A stretch of DNA of 64,000 nucleotides from Stenotrophomonas sp. NA06056 (lineage in GTDB: Bacteria; Pseudomonadota; Gammaproteobacteria; Xanthomonadales; Xanthomonadaceae): NCBI RefSeq assembly GCF_013364355.1, contig NZ_CP054931.1, positions 1,984,001 to 2,048,000 of the forward strand, in the 5' to 3' direction. The number at the start of each line of letters is the position of its first letter. Positions within the stretch are counted from its first letter, which is position 1. Below the pieces are notes generated by a model. It searched no databases. It saw nothing but the letters and a program-made list of their open reading frames with translations, and had not been told where the DNA came from. The position numbers and the translations under genes are program-made. This document shows, in pieces, positions 11,387-23,324 of this stretch.

Positions 11387-12334
11387 TCAGCTGCGGTCCG
11401 CGAATGCGTCGGTGGCCCGCACCAGCGCATCGGTCGTGGCCGCTTCGTTGGCGCTGTGGCCGGCGATGACCATCTCCAGGCGGGCTTCCGGCCAGGCTTT
11501 GGCCAGATCCCAGGCACTGCGTGGTGGGCAGATGATGTCGTAGCGACCCTGCACGATGACACCCGGCAGGTGGCGGATGCGATCGATATCGCGCAACAGC
11601 TGGCCGTGTTCCAGGAAGGTGTTGTGGCGGAAGTAGTGAGCCTCGATGCGCGCCTTGGCCAGCGTATCGAGTGGATCCGCAGCGGACGCTGCATCGACGT
11701 CATGCACCAGCATGGCGGCATTGTCCTCCCAGCCCAGCCAAGCCTGTGCCGCGGCGATGCGGATGGCTTCGTCGGCGTGATCCAGGCGCTTCCAGTACGC
11801 GTCGAGCATGTTGCCGCGCTCTTCCTGCGGGATGTGGGCCTCATAGCGGTCCCAACGCTCCGGGAAGATCCAGCGCGCACCGCCGTTGAGTTCGGCGAAC
11901 CAGCGGTTCTCTTCTTCGCGCCCAAGGAATACCCCACGCACGATCAGCCCGGTGGCGCGGTCGGGATGCGCCTGCGCATAGGCCAGTGACAGCGTCGAGC
12001 CCCAGGAGCCGCCGTACACCAGCCAGCGCTCGATGCCCAGGTGTTCGCGCACCTTCTCGATGTCGGCCACAAGGTGCTGCGTCGTGTTGTCTCGCAGCTC
12101 GCCGAACGGCGTCGAGCGGCCGCTGCCGCGCTGGTCGATCAGCACGATGCGGTAGCGCGCCGGATCAAAGAAGCGTCGATGGGTGGGCGAGATGCCAGCG
12201 CCGGGGCCGCCATGCAGGTACACCACTGGAATGCCTCCAGGCGTGCCGCATTCCTCGATATGCAGGGTATGCAGCTCGCTCACCGGCAGGGTGTGCTCAA
12301 GGTAGGGCTCGATGCTGGGGTACAGGCTACGCAT
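11387..12334 (-). CDS. pip: Proline iminopeptidase
   Basis: The protein is 315 residues, the usual length for bacterial prolyl aminopeptidases (S33). It releases N-terminal proline from peptides in the cytoplasm. The alpha/beta hydrolase landmarks are the oxyanion loop HGGPGAG, DQRGSGRS, the nucleophile elbow GGSWGS with Ser110, the cap region with WFAELNGGARWIFPERW, the Asp in GRYDIICPP, and the catalytic His in AGHSANE. The start is the ATG of MRSLYPSIEPYLEHT, the conserved N-terminus of this family; a long in-frame extension upstream has no domain and is rejected. It is a single gene with its own terminator. Confidence 0.95.
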   Translation of the reverse strand: MRSLYPSIEPYLEHTLPVSELHTLHIEECGTPGGIPVVYLHGGPGAGISPTHRRFFDPARYRIVLIDQRGSGRSTPFGELRDNTTQHLVADIEKVREHLGIERWLVYGGSWGSTLSLAYAQAHPDRATGLIVRGVFLGREEENRWFAELNGGARWIFPERWDRYEAHIPQEERGNMLDAYWKRLDHADEAIRIAAAQAWLGWEDNAAMLVHDVDAASAADPLDTLAKARIEAHYFRHNTFLEHGQLLRDIDRIRHLPGVIVQGRYDIICPPRSAWDLAKAWPEARLEMVIAGHSANEAATTDALVRATDAFADRS

Positions 12335-12448
12335 GACAGTTCGCTCACAGGCGGGGCCTGCAAGCATACGCCCGCATGGACCATGAGGCAGGTGCTCTGG
12401 CGTGCACAGTGATGGAAATGTGCTTGCAGATGCGCATAAGCTGCGGCG

Positions 12449-13114
12449 ATGCAGCAGGCCATGACAGACACCCCATCGTCGAACCCCATCCTCAGCAGTG
12501 GCGCCCGCGAGCTGATGAAGTGGCTCGCGCTGCTGTCGATGACCGGTGACCACGTGGCCAAAGTGATGTTCGGCGGCTACGTGCCGGTGGTGAGCGAGTT
12601 CGGGCGCATCGCTTTCCCGCTGTTCGCGCTGGTGATGGCGTGCAACCTCGCACAGCCAGGGGCGGACCTGCGCAAGTCGATCCGGCGGTTGCTTGTCTGG
12701 GGCCTGGTTGCGCAGCCGGTGCACGCGCTGGCATTCGGCCACTGGTTGCCCTTGAACATCCTGTTGACCTTCGTCCTGGCTGCCGTGGCAGTGCATGCGC
12801 TGACGAGCAACCGGCAGCTGTTGCTGCTGGTGGCGGGAGGCCTGCTGCCATTCTTCGTGGACTACCAATGGGCAGGCGTAGGCTTCGTGATGCTGGGCTG
12901 GATTGCGTTCCGCCACCGGGTGTACTGGCTGCTGCTTCCGGCGTTCGCTGCCCTGTGCTGGGCCAACGGCAACGGTTGGGCGTTGCTGGCCATCCCGCTG
13001 GTACTGGCCTTGGCCCGGGTGCCGTGGGCGGTGCCGCGCTCGCGGTGGACGTTCTACCTGTACTACGTGGGGCACCTAGCGCTGCTGGCTGCCTATGCAC
13101 TGTGGCTGCGCTGA
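12449..13114 (+). CDS. TraX-like integral membrane protein
   Basis: This 221-residue protein has about seven hydrophobic segments. The opening (ARELMKWLALLSMTGDHVAKV) matches the TraX family start, in which F-plasmid TraX acetylates pilin; chromosomal copies are common and usually have no known role. Other family features are EFGRIAFPLFALVMACNL and a C-terminal FYLYYVGHLALLAAY. Two ATGs, 12449 and 12461, are possible starts. There are no conjugation genes around it, so a pilin-acetylating role is not supported here; it could be an acyltransferase acting on an envelope substrate. Confidence 0.82.
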   Translation: MQQAMTDTPSSNPILSSGARELMKWLALLSMTGDHVAKVMFGGYVPVVSEFGRIAFPLFALVMACNLAQPGADLRKSIRRLLVWGLVAQPVHALAFGHWLPLNILLTFVLAAVAVHALTSNRQLLLLVAGGLLPFFVDYQWAGVGFVMLGWIAFRHRVYWLLLPAFAALCWANGNGWALLAIPLVLALARVPWAVPRSRWTFYLYYVGHLALLAAYALWLR

Positions 13115-13124
13115 GCAACGGCAG

Positions 13125-14480
13125 TCATTGTGGCGGTGAGCCGCTTCCGGCCACGTCGCTGGTGTACTGCAGGACCTTGTCTTCACCCTGCAGGGCGATT
13201 GCCTCCACCGGTTGCCCGCGCAGCACGACGCGCAGGCGCCGGATCGCCTCGGCTGCATGACCCAGTTCCGCAGGCGGCAACGACAACGTGATGCGGCCAT
13301 CGCTGTGCTGGTGAACCACATACCGTGACAATGGCAGCGCAGCGAGTGCATGGGTCAGGTCGATGTTGTTGATCCACTGCTGGTCGGCAGTCAGGTAGCG
13401 CACCGGACGCCGACCCTGCAGGCCGATGATCATCGGGGTGTCGCCGGCCAGTGCGAGTGCGCCGCGGTCCCCGGTGCGATAGCGCAGCAGCGGCAGGCAG
13501 AAATTGAAGCCGCCGCTGAGGGTGATCTCCCCGGTTTCCCCCGGCGGCAACGGCGCACCGTCGGGGCCGAGAACTTCCACATACATGCCTGGCTGCAGCA
13601 ACACATGGCCGCCGGCGGCGTCGTCATATACGGCCAGCGGACCTGCTTCGTTCATGGAGTACAGATCGAGCACCGCGCAGCCAAAGCGCGCAGCCAGGGC
13701 CCCGCGCAGGCCGGGAGACAGGGCCATTGATACCGACAGCAGCGCCTGCGGGCGGTGCCGTACGGGCAGCTCCAGCAGTGCAGCGAAGGATATCGGGTCG
13801 CCGGCAATCACTTCCGGCTGCATCTGGTCGATATAGCGGGCACGATCGTCTGGATGACGCCAGTCATCGGGATGGAGGTTGATCTTGGCCAGGCCGGATT
13901 CATCCATCGTCGGCGTCACCGACACATAGGTGAAGCAGCGCTGCTGCATGCCCAGCAGCATCACCCCCATCTGGCCACGGCCGTGCACCAGGGTGATGCC
14001 GAATCGCCGCAGCGCACGCTTGTGATGGGCCAGATAGCGTGCCGCCACCACCGGGTGCGATGGCAGTACCAGCGGATGGCCTGTGGTACCGGTGGTGCGG
14101 AAATTGATCATCCGTTGCAGGGGCACCGTGTCCGGCACGAAGCGGGCGATGTCGGCGGCGAGGTCGCCGCGGTGTACCGGTGTGATGTCGGTGAAAGTAG
14201 AGGGCTTAGGCTGCCCGCGGTAGTACGGTACCTGGGCAAGCACCTCGGCTACGTGCGCCTGCAGCCACGCAGGCGGCTGTTCCGGTGTCCAGTCGAAGCG
14301 CGCGTGGCCTATGTCCTGTTCATAGCCACGCAGTGCTTCGATCTCGTCGGGCAGCAGCCGGTTGCCACTGGCGTTGCGGAAGATCGGCGCTGACGGATGT
14401 TCGCGCATCAGCTGCAGCATCGCGCGCCCGGCCGGGCTCAGTGCAGGATAACGATCGGCGTCGGTCGGCTCATGGTTCAC
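13125..14480 (-). CDS. PaaK-like AMP-binding (adenylating) enzyme, last gene of the MoxR/VWA/rSAM operon
   Basis: The protein is about 451 residues and resembles the phenylacetate-CoA ligase/CapK branch of the adenylate-forming enzymes. The phosphate-binding loop is INFRTTGTTGHPLVLPS near residue 125, with LYSMNEAGPLAVYD near 275, the GETGEITLSGG strand, and LLRYRTGDRG. The C-terminal domain is short. These enzymes activate a carboxylate as acyl-AMP and pass it to a thiol or amine. No CoA partner or acyl carrier gene lies nearby, so the substrate could be a peptide or small molecule. The GTG at 14480 overlaps the previous stop (GTGA); an in-frame GTG at 14492 is the alternative start. Confidence 0.83.
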   Translation of the reverse strand: MNHEPTDADRYPALSPAGRAMLQLMREHPSAPIFRNASGNRLLPDEIEALRGYEQDIGHARFDWTPEQPPAWLQAHVAEVLAQVPYYRGQPKPSTFTDITPVHRGDLAADIARFVPDTVPLQRMINFRTTGTTGHPLVLPSHPVVAARYLAHHKRALRRFGITLVHGRGQMGVMLLGMQQRCFTYVSVTPTMDESGLAKINLHPDDWRHPDDRARYIDQMQPEVIAGDPISFAALLELPVRHRPQALLSVSMALSPGLRGALAARFGCAVLDLYSMNEAGPLAVYDDAAGGHVLLQPGMYVEVLGPDGAPLPPGETGEITLSGGFNFCLPLLRYRTGDRGALALAGDTPMIIGLQGRRPVRYLTADQQWINNIDLTHALAALPLSRYVVHQHSDGRITLSLPPAELGHAAEAIRRLRVVLRGQPVEAIALQGEDKVLQYTSDVAGSGSPPQ

Positions 14481-15058
14481 TCGCGTGTCCACTTGTCCGC
14501 GGATTCTTCGGCCGCTTTGCGGGCCAGCGCCTCGCGGATCGCACGGGCGCGCTCCTCGGTGGCACGGCTGGCATCCAGCAGGCGCTGTCGTTCCACACCG
14601 CTGACCCGGGCCAGGCGATCGGCGGCCTGCGCGGAGGTTTCCCCTTCGGGCAGCAGGTCCAGGCGGGCCACGACAGTGCGCACCAGTTCTTCGCGGCGCT
14701 CAGGATCGAATACGAACCGTTCCGCGGCGGCGCTGGCGGCCAGCGCCGGAACCGTTGCTGCGAACAGGGGCGTCCAAGCCTCGGCCGCGATGGGCAGGTC
14801 ATTCCAGCACGCGTCGGCCATCAGCCATGCAGCCACCGCTGAAAGCGAGAGCTGGTTGGCATCCACCCCGGCCAGGTCACCGGACAGCGTTGCCCGCAGT
14901 GCTGGGGGCAGATGCAGTGAGCGCGCGGCAAATACATCGCCAACGACAGCGGCGACGTGCAGCCGGCCGCTGCCAGCGCGGCGCGGTGGCTCGAGGAAAT
15001 CGGGCGGCATGTCCAGCAGGCGCCGCAGCAGTACATCAAGGGAGGGGCCGGAGGTCAT
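14477..15058 (-). CDS. Unknown protein between radical SAM and AMP-binding genes
   Basis: The protein has 193 residues, a start 2 nt after the radical SAM stop, and a stop overlapping the AMP-binding gene. It is mostly predicted helix and has no signal peptide, membrane segment or metal motif. The middle is Ala/Leu rich (DANQLSLSAVAAWLMADACW) and the C-terminus (residues 150-193) is a charged helix rich in Arg, Glu and Ala. I do not recognise a family. Its place inside a run of overlapping genes suggests it is a dedicated subunit or adaptor of this operon, perhaps a substrate-binding partner, but no function can be assigned. Confidence 0.75.
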   Translation of the reverse strand: MTSGPSLDVLLRRLLDMPPDFLEPPRRAGSGRLHVAAVVGDVFAARSLHLPPALRATLSGDLAGVDANQLSLSAVAAWLMADACWNDLPIAAEAWTPLFAATVPALAASAAAERFVFDPERREELVRTVVARLDLLPEGETSAQAADRLARVSGVERQRLLDASRATEERARAIREALARKAAEESADKWTRE

Positions 15059-15060
15059 GG

Positions 15061-16026
15061 TCAGGTTCCGAATTTGGCAAAGACCTGGGTGGAAGGGCAG
15101 TCCAGGCAGGCCTGCGGCGGCGCACCCCGGCGCGCCGCGGCCAGCTGTCCGCGCAGTGCCTGCACGTGGGCGATCGTCTGCACATCGCGGGTGGGAATGA
15201 AATGGTCGTCGTTGGTGAAGCTGCAAGCGCTGATGCGTGCGTGTTCGTCGATGAACAGGGTCGGTCGCCGGGCCTCGCAGTCGGTGACGGGCAGCAGGTG
15301 GCCCAACGCACTGGCCTGGAAGCGCGCCAGATAGGCGTCCCCAGCATGAAGGCGGACGTCGCGCTCGGCCAGGCGGGTCAGCAGTGACGGCAGCCGCGTG
15401 CGCAATGCCAGCACGTCGGCGGCGGTCAACGCATGCAGCCGATGGAACTCCGGCCGGTCGCGCCCGCCCAGCTGGTTCACGGTAATCTCGTCCACGCCCC
15501 AATCGGCAAGGCGCAGGCACAACGACTCGAACATCGGCAGGGTGTCGTGCATCAGCACGATATTGGCGCGCAGCAACGGGCGGCGCTCTTCGTCGCGTTG
15601 GGCGGCCAGTGCACGAATCGCCTGCTGCACGCGCGCCGCGCCGCCGTCCCAGCCACGCAACGCATCGTGCGCATCGTCCAGCGCGTCGATGCTGAAAGTG
15701 ATCTCATCGAACGCCGCTGCCAATGCCGACGCAGCACCCTGCTGCCAGGCACGGGTGCCATTGGTGGTCACGCTGATACGCAGCCCGTGTTGATGGCGCA
15801 GCCGCTGAGAAAGCTCCAGCAGGCCAGGCCACAACATCGGCTCGCCACCGAGCCAACTGAACAGCACCGGTTGCCCGATTGCCTGTTGGAAGCCAGCGAA
15901 CAGTATGGCGAGGCGTTCCACTTCGGCTGGATCGGCGTGCAGGCGCGGTTGCCGTACGCGGCGGTCATAGGCACAGAAGCCACAGGACAGATTGCACAAC
16001 GTGGTCAGGCGCCATAGCACGATCAT
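15061..16026 (-). CDS. Radical SAM enzyme with C-terminal cysteines
   Basis: This is a 321-residue radical SAM protein starting at the ATG that overlaps the VWA gene stop by 4 nt. The [4Fe-4S]/SAM-binding motif CNLSCGFC uses Cys11, Cys15 and Cys18. A SAM-binding glycine patch (WLGGEPMLWPG) and strands typical of the TIM barrel (ISVTTNGTRAW, EITFSIDALD) follow. The C-terminus holds four further cysteines (TDC, SAC and CLDC), enough to bind an auxiliary cluster as in SPASM/twitch peptide-modifying enzymes. A longer open frame upstream overlaps the VWA gene and is not used. It probably makes a radical-based modification of a peptide, protein or small substrate; no precursor peptide gene is obvious. 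Confidence 0.93.
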   Translation of the reverse strand: MIVLWRLTTLCNLSCGFCAYDRRVRQPRLHADPAEVERLAILFAGFQQAIGQPVLFSWLGGEPMLWPGLLELSQRLRHQHGLRISVTTNGTRAWQQGAASALAAAFDEITFSIDALDDAHDALRGWDGGAARVQQAIRALAAQRDEERRPLLRANIVLMHDTLPMFESLCLRLADWGVDEITVNQLGGRDRPEFHRLHALTAADVLALRTRLPSLLTRLAERDVRLHAGDAYLARFQASALGHLLPVTDCEARRPTLFIDEHARISACSFTNDDHFIPTRDVQTIAHVQALRGQLAAARRGAPPQACLDCPSTQVFAKFGT

Positions 16027-17822
16027 CGCGGTGCTGCCACGCTGTCGGGCGCGTAGTGCTGCTGGCTGAAGGCGCGTGCGAACTGCAGCAGGTCGGCCAT
16101 GTCGCGCACCACATGGATGTTCCATCCCTCATCGCGGGCGCGCAGCAGGTCACGGGTCCATCCGGCGTTGCCTGCGTCGGCGATGCTGGCCGGCAGCGGG
16201 CTGAACAGGTTGAGTGCCATGGTGCCGCCGCCGCGTGCTGTACGCAGCGCCTTGGCGGCGACGTCCCAGCCGCTGTTGCCATGCTCGTCCTTGTCGAACA
16301 TGGTGGTGATGCCGTCGTCGGAGATGTGCAGGACATGCACCGCCCGCGCGTGCGCTGGACGGTCCGCATAGGTATCGCGCAGGCGATGGATCGGGAACGC
16401 AGTTGCGCCGCCGAAATAGCCGGTCAGCACCTTGAGGATGTCATCTTCCGAGCGCACGAAGCCCTCGGTATGCAGATGCTGCCGGGTACCACTCCACAGC
16501 GTGGCCTGCACGCGCGCGCCTGCGCGCAACGCCGACAGGGCGATGATCGCGCCGGCCAGGGTCAGGAATGACGTCCACGCCTGTGGATTGGGCATTGAAC
16601 CGGAACTGTCCACATACAGGTCCAGGTCGACCGGCTCGGTGGCGGGTTCGCGGCCAGGAGCCTGCCCCTGCACGCGCTGCACCGTGGTCACTCCGGGAAT
16701 GACGTAGGGCGACTGCAGTACCGATTGCAGCCAGTCCACCGCGTCCAGTGCATCGCCGGGCTCCCACGGTTCCAGACCTTCCGGCAGCGCCTCCAGCGAC
16801 TGTGGCTGCGGGCGTGATGGAAAGCGGATCAAGTGTGGCAGGGCGCGCTCACGGTAGTAGCGCACGGCAATCTGATGGTCATCCAGATCGAGCCCGGCCG
16901 CACGAAGGATCTGCCCATACTCGAACGGCTCGCGCATCTGCCCGCCGGATCGCGTGGGCTGTCCAGCGTCGGGCTTCAGCGGCGGGCCGCTCACGGGCTG
17001 CCCATCGGCTGCCCGCTCGTCGCCGGTGATGCGCGGATCGGACGCCGGATGCGGGGCGGGCTCCAGTTCGTCATCCTCCCGTTGCCCCAGGCCGACGGGC
17101 TGGCTTCCATGGCCGGCGTGCTGGGTATCCATCAACGCGTCGACCCGCGTGTCCGGCTGGGATTCCAGCAGCCAGGGGAGCAGCAGGGTGGCGAAGCGGC
17201 CTGCGCCGGTCATCCAGTCGTTGGCATAGACGCGCACCACGCGTGCGCCCAGCCAGGCGTCTCCCTGCAGTGCGCTGTCGTGGGTTGAACCGCCCAGTTC
17301 ACCGCGTGGCTGTTGCCAGAGTTCTTCGTAGATGCCCATGTACAGCTGCCACACTGGCGAACTTGCCTGGGACGGCTGCGCGGCCAAGCGGCGATAGATC
17401 GCGTCCATGCGCAGGCCGTTCTGGCGCTGCAGGCGGTCGTTGATCAGCAGGTCGGTGTAGAGGTTGGCGACCATCGGTGCATGCGCTTCCAGCGTCGGTA
17501 GCGCATGGCGGATGCGGGCCAGCAGCCGTGCGTGGTCGCTGGCCGTGGCCGGCGCCAGCACGTGGTGGCCGATCTCATGGGCCAGGATCTCCAGCGCATA
17601 GGGCTGCAGCTGCAGGCGCTGGACCTCTTCCACATCGATGACGATGCGCTGATCGGCCAGACGGATCGCGGCGAAGCTGCCGGTCAGGCCCTGCGCGGCA
17701 GCCTGCATGTGCGAGCTGCACAGCTGTGGGTCCTGCAGCCGGGTGAAACGGCTCCATGTGGCCAGTGCCTGCGGCCACGCCTCGCGCCACGGCTGCAGCG
17801 GATCAGCGACGGTGGCGTTCAT
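16023..17822 (-). CDS. Metallopeptidase-like + von Willebrand A fusion protein
   Basis: The protein has 599 residues, with ATGA overlaps at both ends. The N-terminal half has a zinc-protease motif HEIGHH (His82, Glu83, His86) preceded by a helix and followed by LYTDLLINDRLQRQNG, consistent with an M48-like or DUF2201_N-type metallopeptidase fold. A low-complexity linker (about residues 240-320, rich in Asp, Pro, Gly and Gln) leads to a C-terminal VWA domain with an intact MIDAS: Asp405-x-Ser407-x-Ser409 (VDSSGSMP) and HISDDG later. No signal peptide is seen. VWA proteins paired with MoxR AAA+ ATPases usually form assembly or metal-insertion machines. It is probably cytoplasmic and works with the ATPase encoded two genes upstream. 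Confidence 0.9.
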   Translation of the reverse strand: MNATVADPLQPWREAWPQALATWSRFTRLQDPQLCSSHMQAAAQGLTGSFAAIRLADQRIVIDVEEVQRLQLQPYALEILAHEIGHHVLAPATASDHARLLARIRHALPTLEAHAPMVANLYTDLLINDRLQRQNGLRMDAIYRRLAAQPSQASSPVWQLYMGIYEELWQQPRGELGGSTHDSALQGDAWLGARVVRVYANDWMTGAGRFATLLLPWLLESQPDTRVDALMDTQHAGHGSQPVGLGQREDDELEPAPHPASDPRITGDERAADGQPVSGPPLKPDAGQPTRSGGQMREPFEYGQILRAAGLDLDDHQIAVRYYRERALPHLIRFPSRPQPQSLEALPEGLEPWEPGDALDAVDWLQSVLQSPYVIPGVTTVQRVQGQAPGREPATEPVDLDLYVDSSGSMPNPQAWTSFLTLAGAIIALSALRAGARVQATLWSGTRQHLHTEGFVRSEDDILKVLTGYFGGATAFPIHRLRDTYADRPAHARAVHVLHISDDGITTMFDKDEHGNSGWDVAAKALRTARGGGTMALNLFSPLPASIADAGNAGWTRDLLRARDEGWNIHVVRDMADLLQFARAFSQQHYAPDSVAAPR

Positions 17823-18796
17823 TGCGGCGGCAACACATGGACATGGTGCGACCACGGCGAGAACAGGGCGATTCCCGCAGGGCCGGACACTGCAGCCAGG
17901 TTGTCCTTGGACAACGCCGGTGCCATCCATTGCACGCCCAGACGTGCGATCACGCCCGGCGCCGGTCCGCTGCCGCTGGCCGCCGTGTACTCGGCGAGGT
18001 CGGCAGGCAGCAGGACGGCACCAAAGGCATCAGCCAGCAGGAGGAAGTACTGGCCTGCGCTTTCAACCACGAAGCCTTCGGCCGTCGCGCGAACCTGGGG
18101 TGGGGCGGGGAAGGTGCCATCCAGACCGCTGAAACCACCGATGCGATGCCCGCTCGGATCGACCTTGCCGTGCCGCGGATTCCACCAGCGGTCCTGCTGC
18201 AGTTGAGCGCGGACCGAGGGCAGATCACCCGCAGCGATGCCCAGCACAGCGGTCACCGCGTCCGTCGGCAGGGCATCGATGCAGGCAAGGGCGGGCGTGC
18301 GCAACTGCACCATGCCCGCCTGCCAGGCGCAGAGTGCGCCCAGGTCACGCAGTGCCGGCAGTGATGCGCAATCACCCGCATGGGCGGCCATCGCATCGAT
18401 CCATTGAGCGACGCGGACACCGGGACTGCTGCCCAGTCGCACCACCGCATTGCTGATCGTGCCCAGCGTTTCGCGTGGATCGAGTACCAGCAACGGCGCA
18501 ACGGCCGGAACCAGTGACCGCCAGGCCAGATCGATCCAGGGTAGCCGGGCCTTCGGTCCGGCGTGGCCCTGCGCTACCAGTTCCAGGCCCAGTTCGAAAG
18601 CAGCCTCGACGATGCGCAACGTGGCCGACGGGTCGTGGCGCTGCACGGCCTGGCACAGCGGATCGAGGGTGCCGCTGACGAAGCCGCTGAATGCGGCCAT
18701 GTCGAGGCCGGGCCAACGGTGTCGCGCATCGGCCACGGCCTGGTTCAGCACGGCGCGGCGTGCGGCCAGCACATCCGCCAGAAGGGTGGAAACCAC
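17819..18796 (-). CDS. Unknown protein between MoxR ATPase and VWA genes
   Basis: The protein has about 325 residues from a GTG 2 nt after the ATPase stop; a TTG at 18817 would add seven residues. The first 190 residues are Ala/Leu-rich helices (LSLADVLAARR-like start, AVLNQAVADARHRW), and the C-terminal 140 residues look like mixed beta sheet (RIGGFSGLDGTFP, GQYFLLLADAFG) ending in SHHVHVLPPQ. It contains no known catalytic motif, membrane span or signal peptide that I can see. Its stop overlaps the VWA gene start (ATGA). It is probably a structural or substrate-recognition component of the same complex. Family unknown. Confidence 0.8.
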   Translation of the reverse strand: MVSTLLADVLAARRAVLNQAVADARHRWPGLDMAAFSGFVSGTLDPLCQAVQRHDPSATLRIVEAAFELGLELVAQGHAGPKARLPWIDLAWRSLVPAVAPLLVLDPRETLGTISNAVVRLGSSPGVRVAQWIDAMAAHAGDCASLPALRDLGALCAWQAGMVQLRTPALACIDALPTDAVTAVLGIAAGDLPSVRAQLQQDRWWNPRHGKVDPSGHRIGGFSGLDGTFPAPPQVRATAEGFVVESAGQYFLLLADAFGAVLLPADLAEYTAASGSGPAPGVIARLGVQWMAPALSKDNLAAVSGPAGIALFSPWSHHVHVLPPQ

Positions 18797-18798
18797 GG

Positions 18799-20379
18799 TC
18801 AGCGCGCCCGCAGCCAATGCAGGTAATTGGTGTAGCGTTGGTGCAGGTACTTCAGTTTCAGCAGGTCGTCATACAGATGACCGTACAGCTTGCGGCCCTT
18901 CACCCGATCCTCGACCAGGCGTTCGATGCGGGTCAGGCGCTTGCGGGTTTCGGTTTCGGTCATGCCGTCCAGACCCCGCTGGAACTGTGCCGAAAGCTCG
19001 CCCACCGGATCGTCGCGATCCAGATCCAGCCGGTCATACTCGGCATTGGACGCATCCAGCAGCCAGCGCAGCCAACTGAGCCGATCGGTGCGATAGGCGG
19101 CGTTCTCCGGCAGGGCGAAGAAGGGCGCATCCAGGTCCGGCTGCAGCTTGTCGTTCAGCACGAACGGCAGCACCTGGCGAACATCCTCCAAGGTTACAGA
19201 GGGGCTGCCACGGAAGTACGCCATGGCCTTGGCGAACACCAGAAGCGTCATCAGGTTGCGTACCGACAGGCCATTGCGGGTCTGGCAGCCAAGGTCCTTC
19301 ATGCGATCGCGGCCACTGTCGGCAGCTGTCACCTGCGCCCATTCGGCACCGGCCAGGCGCGCGGTGTCCTTGGTCAGGTACTCGAACTGCGCACCGGCCG
19401 TCTCCATCAGTTCGAACTGGCTGCTGAAGAATTCGATGCGCCGACGCACGTCCTGCGGCACCTCGATCGCCCGGATCTCGTGCAACAGCTGGTCGCCCTC
19501 GGCCTCGCTGAAGATGATGTCGCGTGGCACCACCTCTTCCGGCCGGATGTCCTGCTCGATGCGCAGCAGCATCTCTTCCAGGAACCGCGGATTGAACGCC
19601 AACGCCTGCACCACCACGTCGATGCGGTCGCGCAGGGCTTCGATCACCTGGTAGGTGCCGCCACCGCGGTCATCGTTGGCGGTCAGGTACCACGCCGATT
19701 CCGGGCATTCGTAGACATGGTTGAGGACTTCGGCATAGTTGTCGCCCATCACCGTCAACAGGGCGCTCTGGGTACGGGTCGGAATGCGGTTGTATTCATC
19801 GATGATCTTTACCCGCATGCCGAGCCACGACCGCCAGGCGATGCGGATGTCCGCCATGTCCTGCGCGGCCACCAGGTCGGCGGGCAGCGGGTTGCCGAGC
19901 AGGTCGGCGATGGTCATCTGCGGGTGGCCGTGCTGCATCGCCCGGCGCACTTCGCGCACCGGATAGCCGGCCAGTACGCCCATCAGGATCGCGCTGGCGG
20001 TCTTGCCGCGCCCAGGTCCGCCGATGAACAGGCACTTCCGGCGGGTGGCGAAGGTCAGCAGCGGCAGCAGGACGTAGCTGGAATAGCTCTGTGCCGATGG
20101 CAGGGTCAGCGGCCGCCGGGTGTCGCCCACCGTGAACGACGCCGACGGACCTTCGTGATACTCGATGTCGTAGTGCGGACTGATGATCGCGTTGTTGACG
20201 ATCCAGAAGTAGGCCTGGCGCAGTTTCTCATCCAGCCGCAGCGGTGCGCTGGCGGTGTCATCCTGCAGGCGTACCGGGCCTTCGTACAGTTCGGCCACAT
20301 CGAACGTACGTGATGCAGTCTCGGTGCGCGGATTGGTCGGTGCCTGCGACAGGCGCTGGAACAGGTTGAACGGTGGCAC
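18799..20379 (-). CDS. MoxR-type AAA+ ATPase, first gene of a six-gene operon
   Basis: This 526-residue protein starts at a GTG preceded by AAAGGA at good spacing. The AAA+ core has Walker A GGPGRGKT at residues 120-127, Walker B with Asp194-Glu195 (VKIIDEYNRIPTRTQ), a sensor 1 stretch (WYLTANDDRGGG) and sensor 2/lid helices, as in the MoxR/CbbQ/NorQ branch. The N-terminal 100 residues and the long helical C-terminal tail (GELSAQFQRGLDGM to the end) are extra. Family members act as chaperone-like ATPases with VWA partners, remodelling or metallating target proteins, and a VWA gene lies two positions downstream. It heads the operon ATPase, unknown, metallopeptidase-VWA, radical SAM, unknown, adenylating enzyme. 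Confidence 0.93.
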   Translation of the reverse strand: MPPFNLFQRLSQAPTNPRTETASRTFDVAELYEGPVRLQDDTASAPLRLDEKLRQAYFWIVNNAIISPHYDIEYHEGPSASFTVGDTRRPLTLPSAQSYSSYVLLPLLTFATRRKCLFIGGPGRGKTASAILMGVLAGYPVREVRRAMQHGHPQMTIADLLGNPLPADLVAAQDMADIRIAWRSWLGMRVKIIDEYNRIPTRTQSALLTVMGDNYAEVLNHVYECPESAWYLTANDDRGGGTYQVIEALRDRIDVVVQALAFNPRFLEEMLLRIEQDIRPEEVVPRDIIFSEAEGDQLLHEIRAIEVPQDVRRRIEFFSSQFELMETAGAQFEYLTKDTARLAGAEWAQVTAADSGRDRMKDLGCQTRNGLSVRNLMTLLVFAKAMAYFRGSPSVTLEDVRQVLPFVLNDKLQPDLDAPFFALPENAAYRTDRLSWLRWLLDASNAEYDRLDLDRDDPVGELSAQFQRGLDGMTETETRKRLTRIERLVEDRVKGRKLYGHLYDDLLKLKYLHQRYTNYLHWLRAR

Positions 20380-20481
20380 GCGATTCCTTTGGCAGTGGCC
20401 TCGGCGAATTGTAAAGGCGCGGCGCGTGGGTTGGGGGGAGACCTCGCGTCTGCCGTACGCGTTCGGCTCTACAATCAGATC

Positions 20482-21576
20482 ATGCCGTCCATGCCCACCC
20501 TCGACGATCTGCGTCGCTACGCCGTAGCCCGCACGCTGTTCACGCCCACCACGCTGCTGACCGCGATACGTCGCCTGGGCTTCGTGCAGGCCGACCCGAT
20601 CCGAGCGCCCGCGCGCGCCCAGGACCTGACCCTGCGGCACCGGGTGAAGGGCTACCAGGCCGGGGATCTGGAACGTCGTTACAGCCGGTTGCCGATCGAG
20701 GAAGACTTCCTGGTGAACTACGGCTTCCTGCCGCGCGAACACCTGTCGTTGATGCATCCCCGGGTGTCCCGCAAACCGTGGGACGCCAGCACGCGGCGCA
20801 AGGCGGCGGAGGTGCTGGCGTTCGTCCAGGAGCGGGGTACGGTGCATCCGCGCGAGGTCGACCAGGCGTTCGCGCATGGTCGGGTGACCAACTACTGGGG
20901 CGGCACCAGCAATGCCAGCACTCATCTGCTGGACGGCATGCACTACCGCGGCCTGCTGCGCATCGCGCGTCGTGACAGTGGTACCCGCATCTACGCCGTT
21001 GCGGCACATGCACCCGCCGATGGCGGCAAGGCCGCACGCCTGCAGCGCGCCACGGCCCTGATCGATCTGGTGGTGCGCAAGTACGCACCGTTGCCTTCGG
21101 CGAGCCTGACCTATCTGGCGCGGCTGCTGGGCTATGGCGCGCCGCATCTGGCGGTGGAGATCCAGCAGGCACTGCGGCTGGCGCGCGAGCAACTGGCGGG
21201 CTGCAACATCGACGGAACCACCTGGTACTGGCCAGCCGACGAGAATCCCCGTTCGCGGCGCTATCAGGCCGATGAGCAGGTGCGGCTGCTGGCACCGTTC
21301 GATCCCGTGGTCTGGGACCGGCGCCGTTTCGAACAGTTGTGGGGCTGGGTCTACAAGTTCGAGGCCTATACCCCGGCAGCCAAGCGCCGCTTCGGCTACT
21401 ACGCGCTGCCGCTGCTGTGGCGTGAGCAGGTCATCGGCTGGGCCAATATCACCGCCAAGGATGGCGGGTTGTTGCCGGATATTGGTTTCGCCAGTGCCTC
21501 GCCCATGAAGGATGTTCTGTTCCGCAATGCGCTGGATGACGAGCTGGAGCGGATGACGCGGTTCCTTGCTGGGTAA
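20482..21576 (+). CDS. YcaQ/AlkZ-like winged-helix DNA glycosylase
   Basis: This 364-residue protein belongs to the HTH_42 family (YcaQ of E. coli, AlkZ of Streptomyces), which unhooks interstrand crosslinks and removes bulky alkyl bases. Family marks include the catalytic QxD-like motif QADPI near residue 37, the run PRAREQ-like APARAQDLTLRHRVKGY, tandem winged helices, and a C-terminal beta barrel containing LLAPFDPVVWDRRRFEQLWG, FEAYTPAAKRRFGYYALPLL and a WREQVIGW strand. It is divergently transcribed from the MoxR operon. The ATG at 20482 fits the family N-terminus; the ribosome site is weak, and ATG 20491 is possible. Confidence 0.9.
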   Translation: MPSMPTLDDLRRYAVARTLFTPTTLLTAIRRLGFVQADPIRAPARAQDLTLRHRVKGYQAGDLERRYSRLPIEEDFLVNYGFLPREHLSLMHPRVSRKPWDASTRRKAAEVLAFVQERGTVHPREVDQAFAHGRVTNYWGGTSNASTHLLDGMHYRGLLRIARRDSGTRIYAVAAHAPADGGKAARLQRATALIDLVVRKYAPLPSASLTYLARLLGYGAPHLAVEIQQALRLAREQLAGCNIDGTTWYWPADENPRSRRYQADEQVRLLAPFDPVVWDRRRFEQLWGWVYKFEAYTPAAKRRFGYYALPLLWREQVIGWANITAKDGGLLPDIGFASASPMKDVLFRNALDDELERMTRFLAG

Positions 21577-21608
21577 GGTTCTGCTTGGGATGACAGCTAG
21601 CGCTGCTG

Positions 21609-23324
21609 CTATTCGTCGCGCCGTTCCGTGCGTACCCGTGCGCGTGCATCATAGAGCTGGCTGTCCGCATGGTGGATGGTGTCGGCCACGGTCTCACCTG
21701 GCGCACTGACCGCCGCACCCATGGAGAACGCGGTCGGTGATTGCGCTGCGTTGGCGGCGTACCAGCCTTCCAACAGGGGAAGGCGTACCGACGCCGATGC
21801 GGTCAGCACGACCAGGAACTCGTCTCCTCCCAGGCGGACCACCGTCTCCCCCGCGCTCAGCGGCGCCCTGAGGAAGGCGGCAAACTCGATCAGGATCGCG
21901 TCACCACGGTGATGGCCCTGCGCATCATTGATCTGTTTGAAATCGTCCAGGTCGAAGACCAGGCACGCCCACGTGCCGGCGGTCATTTCGTCGAGACGGT
22001 GCAGGTAACGGCGGTTGTGGCACTGGGTGAGCGGATCCTTCAGCGACAACTCGCGCAGACGCTGTTCCTGCAAGCGCAGCGCGGTGACATCCTGGGCATG
22101 GCCCAACACGAAGGGCGGCTGTCCCTCGCTGTCGAGCACGTTGTTGTAGGCCCAGTAGCGGAGCGTACCATCGGCGGCGATGAGTTCGATGACACCTGCA
22201 TCGGTGTGGTTGGCCTCGATGCGCTTCAGGTAGGCACTGAATACCTCGCGGCGCTCGGGTGGCATGTAGTCGCACAGGCTGCGACCGATGATCTGGCGTT
22301 CCTCGTATCCGAGCGATTGCAGCGCTGCCGGGTTCACCGAGGTCAGCGTGCCATCCAGCGTATGCGTGCAGATCAGGCCCAGACTGTAGTGGAACAGCCG
22401 CCGATAGCGCACTTCGCTCGCCGCGAGGGCGTCCAGCGCTGCGCGTTCTTCGGTGACGTCCTGGATGGCACCCACGAGCCGAGGATGGCCCTCCACCTGC
22501 TGTCGATTGCCCACCACGCGGGTCCAGATGCTGCGCCCATCGGCTGTGCTCATCGGCAGCTGCACCTCCCAAGGCGTACCATCCTCCACGCAACGCTGCA
22601 CGGCCGCCTGGATGATGCTGCGGCTGTCCGCGCGATAGAACGACAACGCAGACCCGAGTGTCGGCTGGTAACTGGAGCGCACGCCGTGGATCTGTTTGGT
22701 CTCACGCGTCCAGCGCACCTCGCTGGTGTCAAGGTCAAGCTCCCAACCACCCACCTTGGCCGCGGCGTTGGTGCGCTGCAGGAAGTCCTCGCTGCGTTTC
22801 AGATCGCGATGCAGCGCCTGCGCCTGGTCGATCTGTTGCAGCAGTGCGCTGCGTTGTTCAAGCACCTGCGTGGTGACTCGGCCAAGATGGACCATCAATT
22901 CCCGTTGCGATGGCGACAGCACGCCGGGCAGGGTGTCGAGCAGGCACAGTGTGCCGATGCGCGCGCCATGGGCGGTGGTCAGTGCTATTCCAGCGTAGTG
23001 GCGTACCCTGTGCCCTGCGGTGACCAGCGGACTGCTGGCGAACCGAGGGTCCTGCCGCGCATCGGCAATCTCCAGCAGCTCGTCCTGCTCGATGGCGTGC
23101 GTGCAGAATGAAATCGAGCGCGGGGTTTCGGTAACGTCTCCCAGCCCGATGCTGGATTTGAACCATTGCCGGTGCGCGGCAACGATGGAAATCAATCCGA
23201 TGGGCATGCCCGTGGCAGCAAGTGCGGCGGCGACGATGGCATCGAATACCGGCTCTGGCGGTGTATCGAGGACACCGAGGCGATCGATCTCGAGGAGTCT
23301 GGAGGCTTCATCCATGGCAGGCAC
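21609..23324 (-). CDS. Diguanylate cyclase with GAF and two PAS domains
   Basis: The protein has 571 residues from a GTG with GGAG 5 nt upstream; ATG 23315 would remove three. A GAF domain fills roughly residues 20-160 (RQWFKSSIGL, ISFCTHAI), two PAS/PAC domains fill 180-420 (KVGGWELDLDTSEVRWT; FHYSLGLICTHTLDG with TSVNPAALQSLGYE), and a GGDEF domain closes the protein. The signature is intact at 499-503 (RLGGDEF), with DPLTQCHNRRYL marking the domain start. The RxxD inhibitory site that normally precedes the signature is missing (SAGE instead), so product inhibition is probably lost. No membrane segment: a cytoplasmic sensor that makes cyclic di-GMP. Confidence 0.93.
   Translation of the reverse strand: MPAMDEASRLLEIDRLGVLDTPPEPVFDAIVAAALAATGMPIGLISIVAAHRQWFKSSIGLGDVTETPRSISFCTHAIEQDELLEIADARQDPRFASSPLVTAGHRVRHYAGIALTTAHGARIGTLCLLDTLPGVLSPSQRELMVHLGRVTTQVLEQRSALLQQIDQAQALHRDLKRSEDFLQRTNAAAKVGGWELDLDTSEVRWTRETKQIHGVRSSYQPTLGSALSFYRADSRSIIQAAVQRCVEDGTPWEVQLPMSTADGRSIWTRVVGNRQQVEGHPRLVGAIQDVTEERAALDALAASEVRYRRLFHYSLGLICTHTLDGTLTSVNPAALQSLGYEERQIIGRSLCDYMPPERREVFSAYLKRIEANHTDAGVIELIAADGTLRYWAYNNVLDSEGQPPFVLGHAQDVTALRLQEQRLRELSLKDPLTQCHNRRYLHRLDEMTAGTWACLVFDLDDFKQINDAQGHHRGDAILIEFAAFLRAPLSAGETVVRLGGDEFLVVLTASASVRLPLLEGWYAANAAQSPTAFSMGAAVSAPGETVADTIHHADSQLYDARARVRTERRDE

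Follow-up and report, generated by a model that had tools for sequence, protein, structure and literature searches.

Genomic Organization of the Locus

In the genome of Stenotrophomonas sp. NA06056 (complete, 4.52 Mb), six abutting genes of the minus strand, here named A to F, occupy positions 20379-13125 of a 64,000-nucleotide stretch (contig NZ_CP054931.1, positions 1,984,001 to 2,048,000; hereafter the window) and encode a MoxR-type AAA+ ATPase, a protein without family, a fusion of a metallopeptidase-like and a VWA domain, a radical S-adenosylmethionine (SAM) enzyme, an all-helical protein and an AMP-forming adenylating enzyme. An earlier note on this DNA had described them as one operon, and all six reading frames are indeed open over the extents it assigned. 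The junctions consist of 2-nt gaps (A/B and D/E) or 4-nt overlaps (B/C, C/D, and E/F), with start codons picked by the analyst from the sequence.

Gene A (20379-18799, 526 amino acids (aa), GTG start) encodes a MoxR AAA+ ATPase by its domains and its Walker A and B motifs: AAA_3 (28.1 bits, cut-off 27) and AAA_lid_2 both score above the Pfam cut-off, and GGPGRGKT, DEYNR, and TANDD are invariant or nearly so among 77 sequences, whose lowest identity to the protein of the window is 66%. Pfam searches with B, C, and E returned no match at E ≤ 1. Protein B (gene at 18796-17819, 325 aa, GTG start) is predicted to fold into a helical repeat (about residues 1-201) followed by a C-terminal beta domain; neither for B nor for E was a family or a clear solved relative found.

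Gene C (17822-16023, 599 aa, ATG start), whose nearest named relatives are from Stenotrophomonas, joins a HEIGHH metallopeptidase-like domain to a downstream VWA domain. In the former, H82, E83, H86, and H87 are kept, which corresponds to the HExxH signature of zincin metallopeptidases and makes C a putative peptidase. In the latter, the metal ion-dependent adhesion site (MIDAS), composed of D405-x-S407-x-S409, T474, and D502, is conserved among 76 sequences as expected of a VWA domain, and VWA_2 is detected in 6 of 15 members of the C family (best E 0.002), the window's own C giving no match. The link between C and DUF2201 considered in the earlier note found no support, as no such Pfam match was obtained for any of the 15 C proteins at E ≤ 1; NLYTDLLINDRL in C may nevertheless resemble a part of DUF2201 proteins.

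Conservation and Modularity of the Gene Set

A search of 84,980 species genomes with C as the query retrieved 294 relatives, and the counts of loci given here refer to the best 80 of these 294, of which 16 come from one Janthinobacterium clade and several from metagenome-assembled genomes (MAGs). A, B, C, E, and F are all present in 73 of the 80 loci and follow the same order in 73 of 73, with median junctions in the related loci from -4 to +2 nt; the remaining loci are short of a gene because of a contig end, because the genes lie elsewhere or for no known cause. E and F adjoin each other in all 75 loci that carry both, and the 75 loci placed in the tree span seven phyla according to the submitters' titles. 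Median identities to the proteins of the window fall from 76% (A) through 59% (C), 58% (F), 48% (E), and 46% (D) to 37% (B).

The distribution of the system is sparse. C and E share the same 3 of 369 genomes in the class, 6 of 61 relatives contain C (4 of 37 in the same genus and 2 of 24 in the same order), and the system is present in 3 of 299 sampled genomes of the phylum, each of which also carries NadR. The proposal of the earlier note that the genes act as a single system, and that the neighbourhood should recur in distant genomes, is upheld by the order kept across seven phyla and by the identical distribution of C and E; the case is strong that A-F is a conserved unit constituting most of a modular system. 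Only the Janthinobacterium clade has an additional gene between A and B (L048:8499-8990, with its like in 13 loci); its product, of about 163 aa, has no family.

Two modules make up the set, the first being A-B-C and the second E-F, normally followed by (PnuC-)NadR, with D as an accessory. In one locus (L086), in fact, A-B-C stands alone and E-F-NadR is located elsewhere (L114), with no A-B-C beside it.

Genes E and F, a Proposed Adenylating Pair

Gene E (15058-14477, 193 aa, ATG start) encodes a protein whose model (predicted local distance difference test score 93.8) is all-helical with a long C-terminal helix (residues 154-192) and has no clear match in the PDB. The protein of the window terminates in ...ADKWTRE, and in all 75 loci the two residues before the stop codon are Arg-Glu (73) or Arg-Asp (2), within an ending pattern [TSAG]R[ED] found in 75/75; the conservation of the last two residues is 1.00 for R and 0.97 for E. 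Seven of seven further copies of E, two diverged second copies among them, also end in RE. The codons vary at this end (GAA, GAG, and GAC, six Arg codons, three stops), and all 20 loci without an overlap between E and F show the RE end; therefore, the E/F overlap is not the cause of the fixed end. The other five proteins have no fixed end, the commonest last residue occurring in 24-55%. Judged from its conservation, the Arg-Glu end may serve as a handle that the MIDAS of C grips, or it may present a carboxylate for activation by F, and both readings fit.

Gene F (14480-13125, 451 aa, GTG start) encodes a PaaK-like enzyme of the ANL type that matches the AMP-binding family of Pfam above the cut-off (E 2.6e-10) and retains, in 69 sequences, TxGTxG (129-134), YSMNE (274-278), RYRTGD (333-338), and K435, the motifs expected of ANL enzymes, which we take to act as the P-loop, the Y..NE motif, the RYRTGD motif, and the C-terminal lysine, respectively. 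Its relatives in the PDB are phenylacetate-CoA ligases, and its best family matches are DVU1553_fam_AMP (NF045666; 71.6 bits, cut-off 300) and PaaK (TIGR02155; 28.8 bits, cut-off 646.3). Thus F shares the ANL motifs of the DVU_1553 family ligases and of PaaK but scores far below both cut-offs, and its assignment as a PaaK phenylacetate-CoA ligase was rejected on the score against that equivalog.

In two Chloroflexota loci, both from MAGs (L088 and L090), the E-F pair occurs twice with D between the pairs, and no other locus has second copies of E or F. Because E and F are duplicated as pairs and because of the split loci, they are regarded as partners that NadR accompanies. The second E of L088 was seen as two separate open reading frame hits, and in L090 a DAO-type FAD oxidoreductase lies between B and C and a hydrolase-like open reading frame between PnuC and NadR.

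Gene D, the Radical SAM Accessory

Gene D (16026-15061, 321 aa, ATG) encodes a radical SAM enzyme (Pfam Radical_SAM, E 1.7e-15) with the CxxxCxxC motif, in which C11, C15, and C18 together with four extra cysteines, C250, C268, C307, and C310, are conserved among 32 sequences. Its sole match in the PDB is the sactipeptide maturase SkfB. The PADLOC match of D to pVip (E 6e-15) is confined to residues 3-125, and D was rejected as a viperin on a score of 52 bits versus an NCBIfam equivalog cut-off of 180.

D is present in 34 of the 80 loci, between C and E in 27, after F in 2, and before A in 1, its position in the other 4 (L017, L028, L068, and L087) being left unclassed by the script. In the 18 genomes with a D-less locus that were tested, no orthologue-grade match was obtained: 13 gave nothing, and the matches in the other 5 were partial (25-31% identity, E 1.7e-7 to 4.2e-4). 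The search detected both of its positive controls, at E 4e-92 or better. Hence the system also occurs without a radical SAM step, and the place of D in the core of the set, as first imagined, could not be retained.

The Nicotinamide Riboside Genes NadR and PnuC

A gene of the NadR type (nicotinamide riboside (NR) kinase/nicotinamide mononucleotide (NMN) adenylyltransferase) is located in 66 of the 80 loci and a PnuC transporter gene in 37. The observation in the earlier note that no transporter is visible holds for this window and fails for these loci of its relatives. The neighbouring PnuC matches TIGR01528 above the cut-off; NadR scores 154.6 bits against TIGR01526, cut-off 341.15. NadR lies downstream of F in 64 loci, among which that of L034 is a 75-aa piece, that of L088 is the NMN-adenylyltransferase half, and those of L035 and L090 are further off; in 2 loci (L077 and L091) it lies upstream of A, together with PnuC. 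With only 31-38% identity between the upstream and the downstream type, the tie to NadR has probably arisen more than once.

For 12 of the 14 NadR-less loci, the gene is carried elsewhere in the genome (E 2e-34 or better, except 2.6e-33 and 3.2e-32). Four of these genomes (L028, L068, L086, and L089) have F-(PnuC)-NadR outside the C locus, which brings NadR after F to 68 loci: in L028 and L089 contigs break and it is on another one, in L086 it is on a different long contig, and in L068 it lies some 14 kb downstream as E-F-PnuC-NadR, with E present and probably on the same contig. As for the other 10 NadR-less loci, the gene is elsewhere in the genome in 8. As background, 33 of 299 genomes sampled from the phylum (Pseudomonadota only) and 3 of 14 named controls carry NadR at E ≤ 1e-20. 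Within the genus, 18 of 37 genomes have NadR, and the 4 that hold the system are all among them. PnuC and NadR form a pair at about 3.937 Mb in the window's genome, about 1.9 Mb from A-F. A PnuC-NadR pair lies about 40 kb from the A-F operon in the genome of L084 (Hahella), locus L115, whose contig equals that of the operon in length, near a second nucleotidyltransferase and phosphoribosyltransferase-, macro-domain-, and Nudix-like open reading frames named by eye, possibly a gene neighbourhood of nicotinamide adenine dinucleotide (NAD).

Proposed Mechanism

In MoxR-vWA pairs, among which are chelatases and metal-cluster insertion systems, the MIDAS is thought to grip an exposed peptide of the client, which is then pulled with ATP (excerpts of PMC7159879). 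By extension, the set may be an undescribed MoxR-VWA remodelling system that acts on E-F and is tied to nicotinamide nucleotides, a reading to which a probability of about 40% is assigned. A would be the ring-shaped ATP motor, B a scaffold or adaptor, and C a co-chaperone whose VWA MIDAS would grip the client while its zincin-like domain would cut or bind it. The client would be E, or E bound to F, held via the invariant C-terminal Arg-Glu. Together with E, its dedicated partner, F would form an acyl-adenylate. The product would be tied to nicotinamide nucleotides, with PnuC and NadR supplying or recycling NR, NMN, and NAD; in some lineages D would add a radical modification. By analogy with other MoxR-VWA pairs, whose clients are matured or reset, the outcome is likely to be the maturation or the resetting of an adenylating (carrier-like) complex. 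This reading is favoured because the gene order is constant (73/73), the co-occurrence of C and E is exact, E and F always adjoin and are co-duplicated, NadR goes with E-F, the ANL motifs of F and the HExxH and MIDAS of C are kept, and the end of E is fixed.

Several observations weigh against it. The binding, the adenylation, and the peptidase activity that it invokes are inferred. Two genomes, G046 (L110) and G055 (L111), carry C-D-E (joined by F in G046), and the approximately 19 kb read there contain neither A nor B, an arrangement that is either a reduced form or a relic; NadR has no match at all in these two genomes, which are 99% complete, and the genomes of L023 and L087, both MAGs, have no strong NadR match (E about 5e-4 only). 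NadR is far commoner in the genus (18/37) than the system (4/37) and is distant from A-F in the window's genome and in G011, and PnuC is missing from 43 of the 80 loci. The split of L086 could be a binning error, since it comes from a metagenome bin. Distance correlations between the proteins are 0.88-0.94 (0.91 for F and NadR) without control for common descent, that of PnuC with A, B, C, and E is poor (0.55-0.60), and the sample comprises the closest 80 of the 294 relatives, with its 16 loci from one Janthinobacterium clade.

A different arrangement of the same parts is doubtful: E could be a carrier in which the carboxylate of Arg-Glu would be adenylated by F and the activated end joined to a nicotinamide nucleoside or nucleotide that PnuC/NadR would provide, the conjugate being then extracted or cleaved by MoxR-B-C via HExxH. 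By analogy, and as doubtfully, its logic would be that of E1/MccB-type activation in another enzyme fold. If true, this would be a novel, NAD-linked form of protein conjugation.

Alternative Explanations

A pathway to a nicotinamide-derived cofactor is a rather unlikely explanation, in which NadR would make a pyridine dinucleotide, F would activate a carboxylate on it, D would modify it in some lineages, and the chelatase-like A-B-C, with HExxH as a metal-binding domain, would insert a metal or deliver the cofactor, presumably in analogy with the Lar (nickel-pincer nucleotide) and Hcg (iron-guanylylpyridinol) pathways, for whose genes no search was made. It accords with the linkage of PnuC and NadR, with the intact ANL enzyme F and with the presence of chelatases and metal-cluster insertion systems among MoxR-VWA pairs (excerpts of PMC7159879), but naive clusters of open reading frames contain no constant neighbour that is a client metalloenzyme or a metal transporter, D is dispensable, the role of E is left unexplained, and four genomes with the whole or part of the system have no strong NadR match. 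The genes might instead be two unrelated operons, A-F having a separate role and NadR/PnuC being merely a frequent neighbour; that NadR is elsewhere in the window's genome, in G011, G023, and others, and is lacking in G046 and G055, agrees with this. Such independence is nevertheless improbable, as NadR is linked at two positions, downstream of F or upstream of A, goes along when E-F leave A-B-C (L114), and occurs in 12 of the 14 genomes with a NadR-less locus versus 33 of 299 in the background.

A conflict system, anti-phage or self-limiting, in which MoxR-VWA would set the threshold, C or E-F would be the effector and PnuC-NadR would restore NAD, is suggested by the patchy distribution (4 of 37 same-genus genomes and 3 of 299 in the phylum) and by the proposed MoxR-vWA conflict systems, some of which include a metallopeptidase and a radical SAM enzyme (excerpts of PMC7159879). 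However, no match was found in plasmid records (C, A, and F) or in phage records and IMG/VR (C only); PADLOC 2.0.0 is silent for five of the six proteins at E ≤ 1, only the generic radical SAM part of D matching, and for D PHROGs yielded nothing beyond generic radical SAM matches. The composition of the set is constant and lacks the variable effectors of the MoxR-vWA conflict systems. The genes flanking A-F are ordinary: a TraX-domain gene (12449-13114, plus strand) lies 3' of F and converges on it, an AlkZ-like DNA glycosylase gene (within 20389-21576, plus strand) is divergent upstream of A, and beyond the latter are an alpha/beta hydrolase, a P-type ATPase, a PAS-GGDEF protein, and a methylpurine-DNA glycosylase. 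When checked for an island, the G+C composition is flat throughout (0.64-0.68); no Rfam family was found in the window, and repeats within 12000-21800 are weak pairs only. A metabolic or maturation role is considered likelier because the set is constant and matches are lacking in plasmids, phages, and PADLOC, and a conflict role, which keeps some weight because of the patchy distribution, appears unlikely. As for the modification of a peptide by the radical SAM enzyme, in the manner of ribosomally synthesized and post-translationally modified peptides, the conserved Cys-rich C terminus of D and its sole PDB match to SkfB would suit it, but D is missing from 46 of the 80 loci and had no orthologue-grade match in any of the 18 genomes of this type that were searched, the largest shared groups of short open reading frames in the 600 bases upstream of A are limited to Janthinobacterium, and the junctions are too tight for a precursor gene. 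Such a pathway is very improbable, and the peptide substrate offered as an option in the earlier note loses ground with it, since D is dispensable and no upstream short open reading frame recurs beyond Janthinobacterium.

Comparison with Known Systems and Significance

RavA-ViaA, CoxD-CoxE, and Mg-chelatase (excerpts of PMC7159879) share with the present set a MoxR-clade AAA+ ATPase whose gene adjoins that of a VWA protein with its MIDAS intact; here, in contrast, the VWA protein has a HExxH domain, and its partners are B, an ANL enzyme with E, and usually NadR. The MoxR-vWA ternary conflict systems are defined by a third component, VMAP, iSTAND, or FtsH (excerpts of PMC7159879). Among the components that Pfam recognises, nothing FtsH-like or otherwise of this kind is present in A-F, and PADLOC matched only the generic radical SAM part of D; the membership in these conflict systems that had been suggested finds no support in these profiles. 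The ternary and the FxSxx-COOH systems have in common with this set MoxR, VWA, a zincin-like peptidase, a radical SAM enzyme, and a protein with a conserved C-terminal end, but here the peptidase is fused to the VWA domain, an ANL enzyme and NadR are present, and no variable effector occurs. The FxSxx-COOH precursors are small and variable and end in an FxSxx, RxD, or acidic motif (excerpts of PMC7159879), and E was rejected as one of them, being a folded 193-aa protein that ends in [TSAG]R[ED] in 75/75. The nearest described idea is the linkage of metallopeptidase, FxSxx-COOH, and radical SAM genes to MoxR-vWA (excerpts of PMC7159879), from which the set, judged by its sequences, appears to differ in every defining part that could be tested. 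In comparison to PnuC-NadR salvage, the families are the same, but here NadR is below the TIGR01526 cut-off and is associated with E-F and with the genes of the MoxR-VWA pair. In agreement with the earlier note, searches of the open-licence literature, subscription papers and preprints being outside their range, found no description of a pathway with this set, nor of a tie between MoxR-VWA and nicotinamide riboside salvage.

MoxR-VWA machines are widespread and few of their clients are known. In the present set, E-F is a candidate client that is conserved and the last two residues of E are a candidate handle, which makes client recognition by these machines directly testable with small mutants. 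In addition, it ties a MoxR-VWA machine to nicotinamide riboside salvage, and the chemistry of the system could be new.

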